Assembly (NCBI RefSeq): GCF_024055665.1
Contig: NZ_JAMXMC010000003.1
Span: 284,814 to 348,813 of the forward strand
DNA: 64,000 nt
From: Ideonella oryzae
GTDB lineage: Bacteria; Pseudomonadota; Gammaproteobacteria; Burkholderiales; Burkholderiaceae_C
Direction of reading: 5' to 3'
Shown here in pieces: positions 557 to 10,290 of this stretch. A model generated the notes under the pieces. The model was given only the letters and a program-made list of their open reading frames with translations. It searched no databases and was not told the origin of the DNA. Made by a program: the position numbers and the translations under genes. Numbering within the stretch: position 1 is the first letter of the stretch; the number at the start of each line of letters is the position of its first letter.

Positions 557-1114
557 ATGTCCTCGCCCACCCCCGGTCTGCCCTGCCGCGCCGCCTTCAA
601 CCCACTTCTGCGGCCCTACTTCGTGGTCTATGGGGCCGGCCTGCTGGCCATCACCGTCGTCGGCATCCCGCTGGCCTTGATCTGGCTGTGCGGTGTGGGC
701 GCCTGGTGGGCACGCCATTACTTCGACCGGCTGGAGTGCGAGCTGGGCGAGACCGCGCTGCGCTTTCGCAAGGGCATCCTGGTGCAGGTCGAGAAGACCA
801 TTCCGCTGGAGAACATCCAGGACGTGACCTTCATCGAAGGCCCGCTGCTGCGCCGTTTCAACCTGAGCGTGCTGCGCTTCGAGACGGCCGGCCAGAGCGC
901 CAACCAAGGCAACGAGATGAAGCTGGTGGGGGTGATCGACGCCGCGCAGCTGCGCCAGCGCATCCTGGCCCAGCGGGACGCGCTGCGTCAGCGCCACGCC
1001 CAGGTCGGCACCGGCAGCGCCGCGCCGCAGGACGAACAGCTGGCCCTGATGCGGGCCATGCTGGCCCGGCTGGACGAGATCGCCGCCAGCCTGCGCCCGC
1101 CCCGGCAGGACTGA
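557..1114 (+). CDS. PH-domain (bPH2/YdbS-like) membrane protein
   Basis: A 185-residue protein with two closely spaced hydrophobic segments near residues 20-50 (rich in Val, Ile, Leu, Trp), followed by a bacterial pleckstrin-homology fold. The latter shows the typical YdbS/DUF304 pattern: an aromatic-basic stretch after the membrane, then ETALRFRKG and TIPLENIQDVT, in which the strand with I-P-x-x-x-I-Q-D is the family signature. The C-terminal 45 residues are a charged helix. Family members sit in the inner membrane with the PH domain in the cytoplasm; their ligand is generally unknown. It is a single gene, convergent with the DUF2894 gene 19 bases downstream. Confidence 0.75.
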   Translation: MSSPTPGLPCRAAFNPLLRPYFVVYGAGLLAITVVGIPLALIWLCGVGAWWARHYFDRLECELGETALRFRKGILVQVEKTIPLENIQDVTFIEGPLLRRFNLSVLRFETAGQSANQGNEMKLVGVIDAAQLRQRILAQRDALRQRHAQVGTGSAAPQDEQLALMRAMLARLDEIAASLRPPRQD

Positions 1115-1133: not shown

Positions 1134-1766
1134 TCAGCGCCGGGGGCGTCCGCTGGCCGGCTCGCGCGGCGCGGCCTCGCCCAGGGCCTGCTCCAGCCAC
1201 ATCAGTCCATCCACCTGGGCGACAAAGCGCTCGAAGTAGGCCGGCGAGAGCTGGCGCATCTGCTGCAGCGCCTTGTGCAGCAGGTGCTGGGAGTTCAGCG
1301 GCCCGGCGTTCTGCGGCAGAGCCGCACGCGACTGGGCCAGACGCTGCTCGGCATTCAGCCGCTTCCAGGCCTGGCGGAAGTGGCGCACGGATTTCAGCTC
1401 GGCAGGAGCCGCCGGGGCGGACACGGAAAGGGTCGCAGCCTGCGACCGGCCCGGGACGACCGGGGCCGCTGTGGCGGCAGCGTCCGCGGCGGACAGGGGA
1501 CTCAACCGGGCCAGCAGGCCCGCCAGTGCACCGGCCTGGGCGGGTGCGGGCACCGGCGCCTCGGCCGCGCGCTGGGCGCAGGCGGCGCGCAGCGCGGCGG
1601 CGGCCTGTTGCAGCCGCTCGGCCAGCAGGGCCTGGGCCCGCGCGGGTTGGGCGGGCAGGCGCCGGGCCAGGGCCTGCAGGTAGGCAAAGCGCACGGGGTC
1701 GGCACGGTCCAGGCCCTCGGCCCGCAGCGCCGCCAGCTCGGCCTCGGGCGACCAGGGCTCAGCCAT
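1134..1766 (-). CDS. DUF2894 family protein, last gene of a motor-like operon
   Basis: A 210-residue protein starting at the ATG at 1766, which lies inside the end of the OmpA-like gene (8-base overlap), implying translational coupling. An upstream extension of the frame exists but is Pro/Arg low-complexity shadow of the neighbouring gene. The first 100 residues are helical and Ala-rich; the C-terminal 75 residues (SVRHFRQAWKRLNAEQRL and onward) are more conserved-looking, with basic and aromatic residues, matching my recollection of DUF2894. There is no signal peptide or membrane segment, so it is probably cytoplasmic. In Burkholderiales such genes commonly accompany DUF3348, DUF802 and OmpA-like genes, as here. 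The function is unknown. Confidence 0.7.
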   Translation of the reverse strand: MAEPWSPEAELAALRAEGLDRADPVRFAYLQALARRLPAQPARAQALLAERLQQAAAALRAACAQRAAEAPVPAPAQAGALAGLLARLSPLSAADAAATAAPVVPGRSQAATLSVSAPAAPAELKSVRHFRQAWKRLNAEQRLAQSRAALPQNAGPLNSQHLLHKALQQMRQLSPAYFERFVAQVDGLMWLEQALGEAAPREPASGRPRR

Positions 1767-2523
1767 GGCTGGCGGCAGCCTCGGGCGCGGCGGGCGGCGC
1801 GGAGGCGGCGGGCGGCGCGGAGGCGGCGGCCGTGTTGCCGCGGGCCGGTCGCGCCATCGGCGCCATCTCCACCCGGCGGTTGCGGGCCCGGCCCTCGGCA
1901 TCGGCGTTGGAGGCCACCGGCTGCTGCGCGCCAAAGGCGGCGGCAAAGACATTGGCTGCCGGCACGCCCTCCTCGATCAGCGCCCGCGTGACGGTGAGCG
2001 CCCGCTGGGCGGACAGCTCCCAGTTGTCGGCAAAGGGCCGCGGCTCCGCGGCGCCTTTGGCGGCCCCCTTGGCCGCAGGCTTGGCGCCGGCACGCACCGT
2101 GCGGTCGTCGGTGAAGCCGCTGACCATCAGCACCTCGTCGCGGGCCTTCAGGTAGGCGCCCAGCGGCGCGGCCAGGCTCTTGAGCAGCTGGCGCCCCTCG
2201 GGCTGCAGATCGGCCGAGTTGAAGGCGAACAGCACGCTGCCGGCGATGCCGATGCGGCCGTGGTCCAGCGTCACCCGCCCGGCGGCCAGCGGGCCGGCCA
2301 GGGCCTGCTCCAGGGCCTGGCGGCGCTGGGCTTCGAGCTGACGCTGCTGCACCTCACGGTCCAGCCGGCTGCTCAGCTCGTACTGGGCGCCCAGCACGCA
2401 CAGCAGGATGAGCACCAGCGCGCCCACCAGGCCGGACATCAGGTCGGCGAACACCGGCCAGACCGGCGCGGTGGCCTCCAGATCGGCCTCGGCGACGTCG
2501 CCGTGCTGGGCCTCGCCCATCAT
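1759..2523 (-). CDS. OmpA/MotB-like peptidoglycan-binding stator-type protein
   Basis: A 254-residue protein with one N-terminal membrane helix (about residues 22-46) and a periplasmic OmpA/MotB domain (about 95-222). The helix begins WPVFADLMSGL and places an Asp at residue 27, matching the single proton-binding Asp that MotB and ZorB carry at the start of their only membrane helix. The periplasmic part has GFTDDR (136-141), NWELSAQRA (167-175) and NRRVE (215-219), the peptidoglycan-binding signature of the family. A low-complexity Lys/Ala insert splits the domain near 145-160. The tail is Ala/Pro-rich. The start overlaps the DUF802 stop. The MotB-like role as an anchored ion-conducting partner is inference from the Asp plus OmpA combination. 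Confidence 0.85.
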   Translation of the reverse strand: MMGEAQHGDVAEADLEATAPVWPVFADLMSGLVGALVLILLCVLGAQYELSSRLDREVQQRQLEAQRRQALEQALAGPLAAGRVTLDHGRIGIAGSVLFAFNSADLQPEGRQLLKSLAAPLGAYLKARDEVLMVSGFTDDRTVRAGAKPAAKGAAKGAAEPRPFADNWELSAQRALTVTRALIEEGVPAANVFAAAFGAQQPVASNADAEGRARNRRVEMAPMARPARGNTAAASAPPAASAPPAAPEAAASHG

Positions 2524-4823
2524 GCGGCGGCCCCTTCCACCCGCTCGGCGGCCTGGGTGGAGCGCTCGGCGATGCGCTGCAGGTCATCCAGGATCTGCTT
2601 CTGCGACAGGATGCTGAGGTCGATGACCTCGCGCGCCTGGGCCACGTAATAGGCCAGCTGCTCGTCGCTGCGCGCCAGGGACTGGCCCAGGGCGGCCTCG
2701 ATGCGCTCCAGCTGCCCGGCGAGCTGCCCGCTGGACTGGGTGAAGAGCTGCACCGACTGGCCAAAGGCCTCGCCCAGGCTGGCCACTTCCACCGCGCCAG
2801 TGCTCAGCTGGGCGGCCACCTCGCCCAGCGGATGGGCCTGGGCGGCCAGGGTCTCGCTGAAGCGGGTGATGGCGGTTTCCAGCGTCTGGGCCGACGAGGC
2901 CACCAGGGCGTCGATGGCGCCACGCTGTTCCTGCGCGGCCTGGGTCACGGCGCCCAGCAGGGTGTCCAGGGTTTGCAGCAGGCGGGCCCGCTCGTCGAGC
3001 TGGGCGTTGTCGCGCGCCATGCTGGCCGAGAGCTGCTGGCGCAGCTCGGCGATCACCTCGGCGGCGGCGCGCGGGGCCTGGGCCGCGGTGTCCACCAGGC
3101 GGGCCACCTCGCCCACCGTGCTGCGGGCATGGGCCTCGGCCTGGGCGCTGATCTCCTGGGCGGTGCGGGCCAGGGTCTCGCAGATCTGCTGCTGCTGGGC
3201 CAGGTTCTGCGCACCGGCCTCGGTCCAGTGCTGCCGCAACTGCACGGACACGCCGTCCAGCGCCTGGGTGATGGCGGCCAGGCGGGCGGCGTCGCGCTCG
3301 CCGGCGGCCGTCTCCAGCGCGGCCTGGGCCTGCTGGATGCCGGCCACCAGGGTGGCGGCGTGCGCCTCGAAACGGGTGGAGGCGCCTTCCAGTGCCTGGC
3401 CCACCTGCTGCTGCTGGGCCAGAGCCTGCTGGCCGGCTTCGGTCCAGGTGCTGTGCAGGCGCTCGCTCAGGGTTTGCAGGCTGCGCTGCACCTCGGCCAG
3501 CTGGGCGGCGTCGCGCTGGCGGGCCTCGTCGGCCAGCGTGGCCTGGGCCTGGGCCAGGCGCTCCACCAGCGCGGCGGCCTGCTGCTCGAAGCGCTGGGCC
3601 GCGGCCTGCTGGGCCTCGCGGGCCTGGTCCATCTGGGCCTGCCACTGGGCCAGTTGGCCGGCCTGGCCCTGCTGCTGCTGCGCGGCCAAGGTGCTGACCA
3701 GGGCCTCGGCCCGGGCCTCGAACTGCTGGCTGAAGCCTTGCAGGGTCTGACCCAGGGTCTCGGCCTGGGCCTGGTGGGCGCGGGCCTGCTCGGCCAGCGC
3801 GGCCTGCCAGCCCTCGGTCACCCGGGCCTGGCTGGCCTCGAAGCCCTGGCCCAGCTGGGCCAGCTGGGTCTGCACGGCACCCGCCAGCGTCTGCTGCAGG
3901 GCCTGGGCCTCGCGGGCGATGCCGCCCAGGGTGCTCTCCACCACCGGGGCCAGGGTGGCGCTGGTGGCGCGGGCGCTTTCGGCCAGCGCGCGGTCCAGGC
4001 TCTGCTGCAGGGATTGTTCGACGGAGCGTGCCAGGCCGGTGTAGGCGGCCTCGGCCCGGGCGTGGAATTCGGCCTGGCCGGCCTGCAGCTGGGTCTGCTG
4101 TTCCTGGCTGCGGCGGTCCAGCCCCTCCACCAGGGCCTGCAGGCGCTCCACCAGGGCCGGCATCAGCGCGGTCTGCTGCTGCATCAGCTGCAGCGAGGTC
4201 TCGCGCTGGGCCGCCGCCGAGAAGCCGTGCAGCGGGCCGACGATGGCGGCGTCCAGCCGCTGCACCGCCGTCAGACGCTCGCGTCGCAACAGGGCCGAAA
4301 GCAGGCCCAGCGCGGCCGAGCCGGCCACGCCAGCGATGGAGGTGCCGAAGGCCAGGCCCAGGCCCTTGACCGGGGTGACCAGGGCGTCGCGCACCGCGCT
4401 CAGGTCGGTGGACAGCTCCAGCAGGGCGCCGGTGCCGCGCAGGGTCAGCACCATGCCCAGGAAAGTGCCCAGCATCCCCAGCAGCACCAAGAGGCCCGCC
4501 AGCGAGGGTGCCAGTGCCGGGCCCGGCAGGGCCGCGGGCACGCCTTCCACCCGGCGGCGCACCGCGCTGCGCAGGCTGGCGGGCAGGCCGTCCAGCCAGG
4601 GGGCCAGGGTGGCCGGCGTGCTGTCCAGGGCCGCCACGGCCTGGTCCAGCGCGGCGGTGTCGCGGGCGAAGCGGCGCAGCTCCAGCGCGCCGGTGGCGTA
4701 GAGCGCGGCGATCAGCGCCGTCACCGCCAGGGCCAGGACATTGGTGCCCAGGTAGCCGGCGCCCACCCAGGCGATGCCCGCCAGGCCGGCGAGGAAGACA
4801 AGCAGTTGCAGCGTGCGGTTCAT
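2520..4823 (-). CDS. DUF802 protein: MotA/TolQ/ZorA-like membrane head with long coiled-coil tail
   Basis: A 767-residue protein. Two membrane helices lie at about 5-46, a cytoplasmic loop at 50-104, and two further helices at about 105-127 and 146-178. The last pair reads LLGMLGTFLGM and GLGLAFGTSIAGVAG, closely resembling the pore helices of the MotA/TolQ/ExbB family. After residue 200 the protein is almost pure Ala/Gln/Glu helix to the end, roughly 550 residues of predicted coiled coil, including two adjacent 73-residue repeats. A MotA-like head plus a very long cytoplasmic coiled coil is the layout of ZorA in Zorya anti-phage systems. The gene overlaps the following OmpA/MotB-like gene by 4 bases. 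I assign DUF802 from memory of the family; the motor role is inferred. Confidence 0.85.
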   Translation of the reverse strand: MNRTLQLLVFLAGLAGIAWVGAGYLGTNVLALAVTALIAALYATGALELRRFARDTAALDQAVAALDSTPATLAPWLDGLPASLRSAVRRRVEGVPAALPGPALAPSLAGLLVLLGMLGTFLGMVLTLRGTGALLELSTDLSAVRDALVTPVKGLGLAFGTSIAGVAGSAALGLLSALLRRERLTAVQRLDAAIVGPLHGFSAAAQRETSLQLMQQQTALMPALVERLQALVEGLDRRSQEQQTQLQAGQAEFHARAEAAYTGLARSVEQSLQQSLDRALAESARATSATLAPVVESTLGGIAREAQALQQTLAGAVQTQLAQLGQGFEASQARVTEGWQAALAEQARAHQAQAETLGQTLQGFSQQFEARAEALVSTLAAQQQQGQAGQLAQWQAQMDQAREAQQAAAQRFEQQAAALVERLAQAQATLADEARQRDAAQLAEVQRSLQTLSERLHSTWTEAGQQALAQQQQVGQALEGASTRFEAHAATLVAGIQQAQAALETAAGERDAARLAAITQALDGVSVQLRQHWTEAGAQNLAQQQQICETLARTAQEISAQAEAHARSTVGEVARLVDTAAQAPRAAAEVIAELRQQLSASMARDNAQLDERARLLQTLDTLLGAVTQAAQEQRGAIDALVASSAQTLETAITRFSETLAAQAHPLGEVAAQLSTGAVEVASLGEAFGQSVQLFTQSSGQLAGQLERIEAALGQSLARSDEQLAYYVAQAREVIDLSILSQKQILDDLQRIAERSTQAAERVEGAAA
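3156..3593 (-). repeat. Tandem 73-codon repeat in the DUF802 coiled-coil tail
   Basis: Residues 411-483 (3375-3593) and 484-556 (3156-3374) of the DUF802 protein are two adjacent units of exactly 73 residues with no gap. Shared landmarks at the same offsets are RFE at the start, AQA near 16, RDAA at 27-30, W-TEAG at 50-54 and LAQQQQ at 58-63. A partial third copy of the first 20 positions begins near residue 367 (QFEARAEALV). The coiled-coil tail therefore grew at least partly by duplication. Confidence 0.85.
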
Positions 4824-4842
4824 CGGTTCCTTGTCGATCAGA

Positions 4843-5616
4843 TCAGTGCGTGGCGGCCTGGCGCAAGGCGTCCAGCAGGCCCTCCACGGGATGCAGGCGG
4901 AAGTCCAGCTCGGCTTCCAGCAGTTGTTGCAGCTCGCGCTGGAAGCGCGGGTTCAGGTGCTCGGCGTCCTCGGCCTGCAGGCGCTCGTAGCGCAGGGCCA
5001 GCAGGCCGGGCAGCTGGGCCAGCAGGGCCCGCTCGCGGCCGCCCACCACGTCCTCCATCACCACGTCCAGCGTGGCCAGGTGGGCCAGCGCGGGCGTGGC
5101 CGCGGCCACCGCGTCACGCACCCGCTGGCGCAGCGCGCCGATGGCGTTGTCCATGGCCTTGTGCACGGCCAGGCAACGCTGGCGGTGGGGGGCGAAGCCC
5201 TCGTCGCCCAGCTGTTCGGCTGCCAGCCGGGCCTGGACGCGGGGCGACACCGCCACCCGCGCGGCCGGGCGGCTACGGGCACCGGCCGGCTCGCCGCGGA
5301 TGTGGCCCAGCAGCTGCTGACGCACCCGGGTCAGCTCCCGCGTTTCCACCGCCAGGCGCTCGGCCGCCGTCAGCAGGCCGGCGGGCACCGGCTCGGCCGG
5401 GCCGCCCAGGGCGCCGGACAGGGCGATGGCGTCCGTCCAGCTGAACCACTCGGACAGGCGCTGGCCGAAGGCAGCGGCCGCCCCCGCCCCGCCGGCGGGC
5501 GCTGCCAGGCCCCAGGCGGCCAGCAGGCGCAGGAAGTCCGAGCCGGCCAGGGCACTGGTCGCGGTGGCGACGGAGGAGGACGCGGGGCGCGCAGAACGCG
5601 CCGTCGGGGTGTTCAC
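4843..5616 (-). CDS. DUF3348 family protein, first gene of the motor-like operon
   Basis: A 257-residue cytoplasmic-looking protein. There is no ATG in a suitable position, so I use the GTG at 5616 (reading VNTPTARSA). The family core begins at about SDFLRLLAAWG, followed by QRLSEWFSWTDAIALSGAL, a pattern I associate with DUF3348. The rest is helical and Leu/Ala/Arg-rich with no membrane segment. It ends 19 bases before the DUF802 start and is first in the four-gene operon, with a TAAAAT -10 element about 26 bases upstream. The open frame upstream to 8205 is antisense to the MFS and TauE genes and is not coding. The function is unknown; by position it may act on the membrane motor pair downstream. 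Confidence 0.75.
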   Translation of the reverse strand: MNTPTARSARPASSSVATATSALAGSDFLRLLAAWGLAAPAGGAGAAAAFGQRLSEWFSWTDAIALSGALGGPAEPVPAGLLTAAERLAVETRELTRVRQQLLGHIRGEPAGARSRPAARVAVSPRVQARLAAEQLGDEGFAPHRQRCLAVHKAMDNAIGALRQRVRDAVAAATPALAHLATLDVVMEDVVGGRERALLAQLPGLLALRYERLQAEDAEHLNPRFQRELQQLLEAELDFRLHPVEGLLDALRQAATH

Positions 5617-7073: not shown

Positions 7074-7406
7074 ATGAGTTCCCCCTTTCCCACCCGCCGC
7101 GCACTGCTGCGCGCCCTGCCCGCCGTCTGCCTGCCCACGGCCGGCCTGATGCCGCCGTCCGCCCGGGCGCAGTCCCTGCCTCTGCTGCAGGAGGACAACC
7201 CGGCGGCCCGGCAACTGGGCTATGTGGCCGACGCCCAGCGGGTGGACCGCACACGCTTTGCCCAGTACGCCGCCGGCCAGACCTGCCGCAACTGCGACCT
7301 GTACGGCGGCGAGGCTGCCGACAGCCAGGGCGGCTGCCAGCTGTTCTACGGGGTCGAGGTGAAGGCCGCGGGCTGGTGCTCGGCCTGGAAGCCCAAGGCG
7401 CCCTGA
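7074..7406 (+). CDS. High-potential iron-sulfur protein (HiPIP)
   Basis: A 110-residue secreted electron carrier. The N-terminus has a twin-arginine-like TRRALLRALP followed by a hydrophobic stretch and an AxA cleavage site near residue 34 (ARAQS), consistent with Tat export of a folded [4Fe-4S] protein. The mature part carries the four-cysteine pattern C-x2-C, then C about 15 residues on, then WC near the C-terminus, which is diagnostic for HiPIPs. These periplasmic proteins carry electrons to photosynthetic reaction centres or terminal oxidases and are common in Rubrivivax-type betaproteobacteria. It starts 32 bases after the MFS gene and may be cotranscribed. Confidence 0.9.
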   Translation: MSSPFPTRRALLRALPAVCLPTAGLMPPSARAQSLPLLQEDNPAARQLGYVADAQRVDRTRFAQYAAGQTCRNCDLYGGEAADSQGGCQLFYGVEVKAAGWCSAWKPKAP

Positions 7407-7440
7407 CCCTCTCCCATCCATCCCCTTTTCGGAATCTTCG

Positions 7441-8175
7441 ATGCTGTTGATCGTCCTGGCCGCCGGCCTGTGGGCCGGCCTTCAAAACGCCCTCGCGGGC
7501 GGCGGCTCCTTCGTCACCCTGCCGGCCCTGATGCTGACCGGCATGTCGCCGCTGGCGGCCAACATCACCTCTACCGTGGCCCTGTTCCCGGGCCAGGTCA
7601 GCTCCGGCCTGGCCGGGCGCAAGATGGTCAGCGGCTGCGGCCCCCTGCCCTTCAAGGCCCTGTTCATCCTGAGCCTGGCCGGCGGCGCGCTGGGCGGCCT
7701 GCTGCTGCTGAACACACCGTCCTCGATCTTTGCCCGGCTGGTGCCCTGGCTGGTGCTGTTCGCCACCACGGTGTTCGCCTGGGGCAGCTTCTTCCGCAAG
7801 CCCGGGGCCGACGGAGCCCATCTGGGCCCGGTGGGCGCGGGCGTGGCGCAATTCCTGATCGCGATCTACGGTGGCTACTTCGGCGGCGGCATCGGCTTTC
7901 TGATGCTGGCGGCGCTGACCATGGCCGGCATGGCCACCCGCAACGCCGGTGCCACCAAGAACGCCCTGGCGGGCGTGATGAACGCCTCGGCGGTGGCGCT
8001 GTTCGTGCTGTCGCCCCAGGTGCACTGGCTGCAGGCCCTGGTGCTGGGGGCAGGCGCGCTGGTGGGCGGCCTGGCGGGGGCCTGGGCCCTGCACCGGGTC
8101 AACGAGCGGGTGCTGCGCATGGCCATTGTGGCCCTGGGCATCGCCCTGACGATCGGGCTGTTCCTGAAGGCCTGA
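7441..8175 (+). CDS. TauE/SafE-family sulfite/anion exporter
   Basis: A 244-residue membrane protein with about eight hydrophobic segments. It has the two-fold TauE/SafE layout: GGGSFVTLPALMLTGMSPLAAN in the first half (here cited by key residues Gly-Gly-Gly and T-G-M-S-P) and an internally similar YGGYFGGGIGFLMLAAL in the second half. Family members move sulfite, sulfoacetate or other organic anions across the inner membrane; the substrate is not evident here. The gene begins 34 bases after the HiPIP gene and ends convergent to the diguanylate cyclase gene. Confidence 0.85.
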   Translation: MLLIVLAAGLWAGLQNALAGGGSFVTLPALMLTGMSPLAANITSTVALFPGQVSSGLAGRKMVSGCGPLPFKALFILSLAGGALGGLLLLNTPSSIFARLVPWLVLFATTVFAWGSFFRKPGADGAHLGPVGAGVAQFLIAIYGGYFGGGIGFLMLAALTMAGMATRNAGATKNALAGVMNASAVALFVLSPQVHWLQALVLGAGALVGGLAGAWALHRVNERVLRMAIVALGIALTIGLFLKA

Positions 8176-8217
8176 AGGGAAGGCCTGACGGCGGCCTGAA
8201 CGCAATCCGCGGGCCGC

Positions 8218-10290
8218 TCAGCCCGGCAGGGCCTCGCCGACCGGCTCGGCAGCGCTGGCCTGCACATTGGCCCGGCCGGCGCGCTTGGCCTCGTAGCAGG
8301 CCAGGTCGGCCTGGTGGGTCCAGGACGCGACGCTGCCCAGGCGGTCTTCCCACATCGCCAGGCCGATGCTGGCGCTGACCTGCAGCTGCCGACCGTTCCA
8401 GGGTACCTGGACGGCCTGGACCCTCTCCAGCAGCTTGTGCGCCAGGCGCTGGGCCCACTGAGGGGGGCAACCTTCCAGCAGCACCGCAAATTCGTCGCCA
8501 CCCAGCCGCCCCACGGCATCGCTGACGCGCACGCCGTCATTCAGCGCCCCCGCCACGGCCTGCAGCATGGCGTCACCGGCCTGGTGGCCTTCGCTGTCGT
8601 TGATCGGCTTGAAGTGGTCCAGGTCGATGACCAACAGGGCCGTCGGGCGGCGCAAGCGGCCCTCAATGAAGCGCTCCATCCGCTCCTGGAAGCCGCGGCG
8701 GTTGAGCAGGCCGGTCAGCGCATCGTGGGTGGCGGACCACTCCAGCTGGTGGCGCGACTGCACCTGGGCGGTGATGTCGCTGAGCGTCCAGACCATGCCG
8801 GCTTCGGGCTGCCCCGGCCGCACCTCGCTGGCGTGCAACTGCCCCCAGAAGGTGTTGCCCTGCTGGCGCAGGAAGCTGTGCTCGCCGACATAGGCCCGCC
8901 CTTCGCGCAAGGCGGCCTGGATGGCCCCGAGCATCCGGTCGGCATCGCCGACGTCTGCCAGCAGCAGGCGGGCCGGCAGACCGCGCAGTTCGCTCGGGGC
9001 ATAGCCCAACAGGCGGGCCAGCTCGGCGTTGACCAGCGTCAGCCGGTCCTCGCGCAGGAAGGCCAGGCCCAGCGGCGCGGCAGCCATCACGCTTTCCAGC
9101 CGCTCCAGCAGCTGGTGGTTCTCGTGGTCCTTGTGTGCCAGGGCCAGTGCTACGCTGTGCAAGGTGGCGCTGAGCGCGCCGATCTCGCCGCGCGCCACGG
9201 GCCAGCCGTCCTGCGGGGCCTGATCCCCGTCGAGCAACGCCACCACGCGCCGTTCCAGCTGGGCCAGCGGGCTGAGCTGCCAGCCCAGGTAGAGCAGGAG
9301 CACCAGGGACAGGCCCGCCCAGGTGCCCAGCGCCCAGCGCAGCGAACGCACGCGCAGCGCGTCCAGCGGCGCCATCATGGCGGCGCGGGAATAGGCCCGC
9401 CAGATCACCCAGTCCGGCCCCGGAATGCCCGCGGCCACGACGATCTGATCGCCATCCGACCAGACCAGTCCATCGGACTCCACCGGGCTGCCCTGGTCCC
9501 GCCACTGGCGCATGGCCACGGACAGCCAGACGGAAGGGGCCGCTTGCGTGGTACCGGTCGCCAACGCCCCATCCACGAGGCGGCGGCCCTGGTTGTCGGT
9601 GATGGCCAGCAGCTGGGAGATGGCTCCCTCCCCAAAGTCGGGGCCTGGCTCGACCACATCGCTCATCAGCCCCGTCCGGCGCAACCAGATGATGCCGACC
9701 AGCACGGCCTGGACACGGCCATCGCGCAGCACCGGCTGCGTGAAGACCGTCGCCAAAGGGGCGGTTGCGGCCCCGGACCTCGGGACCGAGGTGGTATCCC
9801 GCGGGAGCACCCAGACCATGGGCCGGGACGCCTGAACCGTGGTCAGGAAGCCGGGCTGCCGAGGCAACAGGGCCTGGAGAGGCCGGTCCTCGGCCCGGGC
9901 ACTGAACAGCTGCCCCTGCGGGTCGGCCACGACGACCTCGTCAAACAGGACGGCAAGGCCCGGGTGGGCACCGCTGGAAGCGTCCCAGCGGGCCGGTTCG
10001 GGCAGGGTCTGCGCGGCAACCCACAAGCTCCGCTGCCGCTCCATCAGGCGCCGCGACAGGGCGGCCGCACTGTGCACGGCGTCCTGCAGCACGACCTGGC
10101 GCGCACGGGCTTCGGTCTCTCGCTCGGCGTCGCGGACCAGCAGGCCCGAGATCAAGGCCGTGGCCAGAACCCCGGCGAGCAGCGCGCCCACGGTGATTCG
10201 CAACAGCAGAGACCCCCGCCAGCGCGCAGGCATCCAGCCACGCCACCAGGGTGGGGCAGACAGGGAGGATGGCGAGAGCGAGAAAGGCAT
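8218..10290 (-). CDS. Membrane diguanylate cyclase: periplasmic sensor, PAS, GGDEF
   Basis: A 690-residue inner-membrane protein. Membrane helices at about 25-52 and 330-350 flank a roughly 275-residue periplasmic sensor region of Cache-like character. A short HAMP-like linker, a PAS domain (about 400-525) and a GGDEF domain (about 530-690) follow. The catalytic motif is intact (GRLGGDEFAVLL near 595-605), with DLDHFKPIND upstream, so c-di-GMP synthesis is expected. I see no clear RxxD inhibitory site directly before the motif. The gene lies 102 bases downstream of a response-regulator gene and is the last of a seven-gene minus-strand signalling run. Confidence 0.9.
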   Translation of the reverse strand: MPFSLSPSSLSAPPWWRGWMPARWRGSLLLRITVGALLAGVLATALISGLLVRDAERETEARARQVVLQDAVHSAAALSRRLMERQRSLWVAAQTLPEPARWDASSGAHPGLAVLFDEVVVADPQGQLFSARAEDRPLQALLPRQPGFLTTVQASRPMVWVLPRDTTSVPRSGAATAPLATVFTQPVLRDGRVQAVLVGIIWLRRTGLMSDVVEPGPDFGEGAISQLLAITDNQGRRLVDGALATGTTQAAPSVWLSVAMRQWRDQGSPVESDGLVWSDGDQIVVAAGIPGPDWVIWRAYSRAAMMAPLDALRVRSLRWALGTWAGLSLVLLLYLGWQLSPLAQLERRVVALLDGDQAPQDGWPVARGEIGALSATLHSVALALAHKDHENHQLLERLESVMAAAPLGLAFLREDRLTLVNAELARLLGYAPSELRGLPARLLLADVGDADRMLGAIQAALREGRAYVGEHSFLRQQGNTFWGQLHASEVRPGQPEAGMVWTLSDITAQVQSRHQLEWSATHDALTGLLNRRGFQERMERFIEGRLRRPTALLVIDLDHFKPINDSEGHQAGDAMLQAVAGALNDGVRVSDAVGRLGGDEFAVLLEGCPPQWAQRLAHKLLERVQAVQVPWNGRQLQVSASIGLAMWEDRLGSVASWTHQADLACYEAKRAGRANVQASAAEPVGEALPG

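Follow-up and report, generated by a model that had tools for sequence, protein, structure and literature searches.

Zorya systems of type I comprise ZorABCD and those of type II comprise ZorABE, ZorD being a predicted helicase and ZorE, the effector of type II, a nickase. In both types the aspartate of ZorB, the binding of peptidoglycan, and the tail of ZorA are reported to be required for defense. A third type, whose defining extra genes encode a DUF3348 and a DUF2894 protein (PMC8565338; see also Mariano et al. 2025), was named by Payne et al. (2021), who counted 6,401 loci of this architecture (PMC8565338); its published host range takes in Burkholderia, Ralstonia, Stenotrophomonas, and their relatives. 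When cloned in Escherichia coli, a type III system from Stenotrophomonas reduced plating for one phage or more and shielded cultures from PVP-SE1 when the multiplicity of infection was below 0.1 (PMC8565338). The same authors proposed that the DUF3348 and DUF2894 proteins regulate ZorAB (PMC8565338). The two proteins carry swapped names, DUF3348 being ZorF in the papers and ZorG3 in PADLOC, and DUF2894 being ZorG in the papers and ZorF3 in PADLOC; we refer to them here by their DUF numbers. Our account of earlier work draws on PMC8565338, PMC11890865, PMC11953036, PMC12584637, and PMC13064858.

A Zorya Type III Operon in Ideonella oryzae

The DNA under study, which we call the window, is a stretch of 64,000 nucleotides from Ideonella oryzae. 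Its minus strand carries, from position 5616 down to 1134, a tightly packed operon that encodes a DUF3348 protein, a ZorA-like protein, a ZorB-like protein, and a DUF2894 protein in that order (Table 1). PADLOC models for type III match all four proteins, and the locus is almost certainly a complete Zorya type III operon. Zorya type III has already been described, and the locus is another copy of the published system: it has the same four components as the loci of Payne et al. (2021), and we found no feature that distinguishes it from them. A sequence-only reading of this stretch had held that the DUF3348 and DUF2894 proteins resemble nothing known from Zorya and that the operon could be a new defense system. 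The former view fails on the fact that both proteins define published type III (PMC8565338), and the latter is ruled out because all four genes are those of the published set. The system had thus been correctly sensed but not recognized as known.

The gene order was kept in all 80 relatives that we fetched, which are the best 80 of 571 ZorA matches and so form a close set; in two of them (L058 and L079) the contig ends where the DUF2894 gene was to be looked for, and the gene was not seen. Because the order is kept throughout this set, the four-gene arrangement is not the product of chance. The ZorA protein is 96% identical to that of Ideonella sp. B508-1.

The end of the DUF3348 gene is separated from the ZorA gene by 19 bases, and the ZorB start and the ZorA stop share 4 bases. 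The program-called open reading frame for DUF2894 starts at position 1952, but the PADLOC match begins only at residue 62 of that reading, and the true start is therefore likely to be the ATG at 1766, which would overlap the ZorB stop by 8 bases. Both DUF proteins match their Pfam families (PF11828 and PF11445) above the gathering score. A scan of the locus for promoters and terminators found none. Next to the operon and convergent with it (window positions 557–1114) lies a gene for a protein with a bacterial PH domain (PF03703), which we encountered in three of 16 genomes of the host's genus, each time adjoining Zorya type III.

Table 1. Coordinates of the Zorya type III genes and their parts in the window
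Feature	Position	Strand	Evidence
DUF3348 protein, 257 aa, GTG start	5616-4843	-	PF11828, E 1.9e-49; PADLOC PDLC00658, E 1.1e-59
ZorA type III, 767 aa: MotA/TolQ/ExbB-like membrane head and long coiled-coil tail	4823-2520	-	PADLOC PDLC00647 ZorA3, E 7.6e-271, residues 1-761
ZorA pore segment, residues 107-181 (T120; GTS at 160-162)	4281..4505	-	matches 8vvn_C, E 3.1e-6
ZorA tail, conserved far end, residues 561-760	2544..3143	-	per-block conservation, 79 rows
ZorB type III, 254 aa: single membrane helix and periplasmic OmpA-like domain	2523-1759	-	PADLOC PDLC00651 ZorB3, E 1.2e-101
ZorB Asp27 codon, ion-site aspartate	2443..2445	-	invariant in 52/52 rows
ZorB OmpA-like peptidoglycan-binding domain, residues 98-216	1876..2232	-	PF00691, E 1.9e-19; D139 and R174 invariant
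DUF2894 protein, 210 aa from ATG 1766 (likely start)	1134..1766	-	PF11445, E 4.1e-44; PADLOC PDLC00652, E 3.2e-57

The ZorAB Motor

A hydropathy analysis revealed a single hydrophobic stretch in ZorB (residues 19–54), with an aspartate at residue 27, and four in ZorA (residues 3–27, 20–49, 97–131, and 157–180). Asp27, together with D139 and R174, is invariant in all 52 rows of an alignment composed of the window protein and 51 of 73 references, near-copies and fragments having been thinned out. A profile of ZorB matched MotB chains (the best being 3khn_A, with an E-value of 5.7e-19) as well as PomB chains, and, over helix and domain together, the chains 8vvn_B (7.3e-8, along the whole protein) and 8qyd_F (2.6e-6). 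A profile of the ZorA head built from 20 rows, in which T120 and S162 are invariant and T161 is present in 90% or more, matched one chain, 8vvn_C. Both motor proteins thus find counterparts in 8VVN, the solved ZorAB of type I from Shewanella sp. ANA-3. PADLOC models for the other types matched as well, with E-values of 3.9e-16 for ZorB1, 1.1e-7 for ZorA1 (over ZorA residues 108–194), and 1.6e-5 for ZorA2.

These matches uphold what the sequence-only reading had seen here, namely a motor pair of the MotAB or ZorAB kind with a long cytoplasmic tail, an aspartate where the ZorB helix begins, and a pore region at about residues 100–180 of ZorA that belongs with the ZorA family. Its coordinates and main claims stand, with two corrections: the DUF2894 start discussed above, and the extent of DUF802 (PF05650), which covers only ZorA residues 325–376, in the coiled-coil tail and not in the membrane part.

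A search with the single ZorA sequence matched no ZorA chain, and the protein scores 26.3 bits with the NCBIfam model antiphage_ZorA_2, below the cut-off of 100; as judged by these searches, the relationship of type III ZorA to the ZorA proteins of types I and II is a distant one. In place of ZorC, ZorD, or ZorE the operon has the DUF3348 and DUF2894 genes, and models for ZorC, the ZorD helicase, and the ZorE nickase were absent from the matches of the four proteins and of ten scanned neighbors. The resemblance to flagellar MotAB and PomAB extends to the ion-site aspartate where the helix of ZorB begins, whereas a long tail on ZorA and a pair of partner genes take the place of the flagellar rotor. 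No flagellar genes were found among the ten neighbors scanned, and no Pfam family of the MotA/ExbB kind reached the match list for ZorA, which the ZorA models match from end to end.

The ZorA Tail

The tail of ZorA is some 540–570 residues long, longer than the modeled rods of type I (residues 237–696) and type II (residues 110–378) as given in the literature cited above. Members of type III differ in the length of this tail, ZorA ranging from 673 to 876 residues across 79 references. Tandem in-frame duplications in the middle of the tail, with a unit length that differs by lineage, explain part of this difference: in a check that took in 14 of the 79 references, we found 38 of 40 residues identical at an offset of 40 (L121), 36 of 40 at an offset of 87 (L067), and 36 of 40 at an offset of 33 (L115). 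The best self-match of the window protein was 22 of 40 at an offset of 73, as compared with 13–18 in 20 shuffles.

Conservation is distributed unevenly along the tail. In an alignment of 79 rows the mean frequency of the top residue was 0.73–0.83 per 40-residue block at the far end (residues 561–760) and 0.13–0.21 over residues 401–480, which are absent from most rows (occupancies of 0.45 and 0.22). Conservation alone would favor the tip of the tail as a docking site for the DUF proteins, and we also examined partial distance correlations, which did not single it out: the values for DUF3348 were 0.24 with the tip, 0.12 with the middle of the tail, and 0.33 with the membrane part, and those for DUF2894 were 0.03, 0.31, and −0.04, respectively.

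The DUF3348 and DUF2894 Proteins

AlphaFold2 models consisted solely of helices for DUF3348 (pLDDT 83.2, pTM 0.75) and were helical for DUF2894 (pLDDT 79.6), the latter being uncertain as judged by its pTM of 0.42. Foldseek returned no match to the PDB at an E-value of 0.001 or lower for either model, the best being 0.4 for DUF3348 and 4.3 for DUF2894. A search for sequence relatives in the PDB yielded none for DUF3348 (one match at an E-value of 1.7), and for DUF2894 the best was PscE (0.0075 over about 60 helical residues), followed by matches of 0.28 and worse; we judged the PscE match to be compositional. Pfam searches for nuclease and helicase families turned up none on these proteins, whose sole Pfam matches were to their DUF families, a DUF1525 match at an E-value of 5.6 being the one exception, and their matches to BrxC and HamB in PADLOC were weak (0.0054 and 0.039). 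Nor are the two proteins related to each other (hhalign probability 0.5%, E-value 0.12).

Both proteins diverge faster than the motor, with a mean identity over 79 rows of 0.50 for DUF3348 and 0.48 for DUF2894, as compared with 0.75 for ZorB. In alignments that, after thinning out of near-copies and fragments, held 64 of 76 references for DUF3348 and 65 of 78 for DUF2894, the invariant residues were mostly hydrophobic or structural and formed no obvious catalytic cluster. Both genes are nonetheless kept in the operon of relatives down to about 30% identity. By these profile and model searches, type III is without a recognizable attacking enzyme, unlike the systems with ZorD or ZorE. We infer that the two proteins have a regulatory or adaptor role, a view consistent with what Payne et al. 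suggested (PMC8565338).

Weak DUF3348-like matches (19.8–26.7 bits) were also seen in long frames of other families (G295, G023, G148, and G402); they may come from distant relatives that do not belong to Zorya, or may be fortuitous.

Distribution and Inheritance

Of 16 genomes from the host's genus, 11 contain DUF3348, as do 61 of 200 from its family and 29 of 399 across the order. Its frequency is far higher in Paraburkholderia, which belongs to another family than the host's (109 of 117 genomes; SMODS, a marker for CBASS, was present in 15 of 117 in the same draw), and in a second genus of that family, the one represented by genome G303 (g100; 48 of 55). All 20 of the Paraburkholderia loci that we fetched hold the four genes. 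Near-fixation of this kind is unusual for a defense system. A literature search, thin on subscription journals, found no paper on genus-level near-fixation of type III; a survey from 2026 cites Zorya type III among its examples of systems that are highly conserved in Ralstonia solanacearum (PMC13064858), which puts near-fixation on record for one species.

Across 20 genomes the distances among Zor proteins followed those of gyrB (Spearman coefficients of 0.55–0.68, reached by none of 1,000 permutations). The nearest neighbor by ZorA was the nearest by gyrB in eight of the 20, and the label for the genomic site requires at least two changes on the ZorA tree as against one on the gyrB tree, so that purely vertical inheritance in Paraburkholderia is not fully supported. 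The sites in that genus fall into two groups (of nine and seven) and four single loci, as judged by a crude count of shared stop-to-stop open reading frames, antisense frames included. Carriage by phages or plasmids was considered and rejected: a search with ZorB of 50,697 phage records gave no match at an E-value of 1e-20 or lower, and, whereas ZorA matched 27 plasmid records, the 20 listed are replicons of 0.7–3.5 Mb.

The site is shared by three close relatives of the host (G004, G005, and L042), in which the MFS, TauE, and GGDEF genes again adjoin the operon. Three further genomes (G008, G009, and G014, with one side of the locus covered in G008 and G014) have the Zor genes, and of the tested neighbors they show weak matches to the histidine kinase at most.

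To the left of the window, on the same contig, a stretch (L162) carries genes for a tyrosine integrase (L162:11902-13203), a NERD/UvrD-like protein (7325-8986), and a PDC-S37-like protein of 1,589 residues with DUF4011, MTES_1575, and DUF3320 (L162:1834-6600; PADLOC E-value 0, 1980 bits), which is helicase-nuclease-like, as well as a tRNA-Thr (L162:1127-1202). The integrase, PDC-S37-like, and NERD/UvrD-like genes together look like a small integrated defense island. A search of 19.9 kb past the corresponding site in G004 and G005 met none of the three, and a separate island therefore appears to have landed beside Zorya in this strain.

Discussion

To the four components, their order, the membrane topology signals, the ion-site aspartate, and the residues of the peptidoglycan-binding domain observed at this locus, work on types I and II adds a plausible course of events. 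A ZorA5ZorB2 complex would lie idle in the inner membrane until an entering phage damages or presses on the cell wall, whereupon the OmpA domains of ZorB would grip the peptidoglycan. Ions would then pass by way of Asp27 of ZorB and the Thr/Ser ring of ZorA, and the ZorA pentamer with its long tail would rotate or change shape and so relay a signal inward. The step peculiar to type III would be carried out by DUF3348 and DUF2894, acting with the ZorA tail as helical, non-enzymatic, cytoplasmic regulators or adaptors. If they are non-enzymatic partners, then the step that stops the phage would fall to a recruited host factor or to the flow of ions itself. We consider an anti-phage motor of Zorya type III with helical DUF partners to be the probable explanation of the locus as a whole and think it likely that the operon defends its host against some phage; on the narrower point of DUF3348 and DUF2894 being non-enzymatic partners of the ZorA tail, we put the chances at about even.

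What counts against a role in defense is the near-fixation in some genera and a CRISPRi screen in Burkholderia cenocepacia with phage Bcep176, which gave no effect for any predicted defense gene, Zorya III included (PMC12584637). Its authors caution that the systems may not act on Bcep176, and transcription did shift in the leading one or two genes of the Zorya I and Zorya III operons (PMC12584637). The operon could instead be mainly an envelope machine of these beta- and gammaproteobacteria that senses or relieves wall stress, phage protection being a side effect; a housekeeping machine of the envelope was the other option raised by the sequence-only reading. In its favor are the two genera in which DUF3348 is nearly fixed and, in the first of them, SMODS is not; the correspondence of Zor distances with gyrB, the shared site in the three close relatives, and the negative screen with its one phage fit as well. 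Yet the gene is patchy in the host's own genus, family, and order, the nearest neighbors by ZorA and gyrB disagree in most of the 20 genomes and the ZorA tree calls for an additional change of site, more distant members of the genus carry the operon with none of the tested neighbors adjoining, and protection against phage by type III has been measured in E. coli (PMC8565338). We regard an envelope machine as unlikely.

The remaining alternatives concern how an infection would be stopped. ZorAB might itself be the weapon, an ion channel that phage entry unlocks, leading to depolarization and arrest or death of the cell, with DUF3348 and DUF2894 keeping the channel shut beforehand. That reading suits four genes without a recognized attacking enzyme and the regulatory role proposed by Payne et al. 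(PMC8565338), but Zorya is not known to end in ion flow by itself, the type II effector being the ZorE nickase, and the retention of both DUF genes down to low identity fits an active role at least equally; it seems to us improbable. Less probable still, to the point of being very doubtful, is that DUF3348 or DUF2894 is an unrecognized enzyme or nucleic-acid binder that attacks DNA as ZorD or ZorE would. The helical models without a fold match in the PDB and the lack of an obvious catalytic cluster among the invariant residues argue against an enzyme, even though both proteins diverge rapidly, as can happen to effectors or sensors caught up in an arms race, and the uncertain model of DUF2894 leaves room for a new fold with catalytic activity.

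Returning to the anti-phage motor, we note one bolder version that we hold to be rather unlikely: the type III system fixed in Paraburkholderia, and perhaps in its sister genus, would be a nuclease-free, wall-sensing ion motor that is mostly inherited with the chromosome set and contributes to envelope physiology in addition to defense, or even more than to defense, DUF3348 and DUF2894 being helical clutches for the tail. Among the Zorya types, type III is understood least, with no recognizable helicase or nuclease and with two extra proteins that match no known fold. Its near-fixation across a genus makes it testable whether the motor serves solely in immunity or also in the normal upkeep of the envelope.
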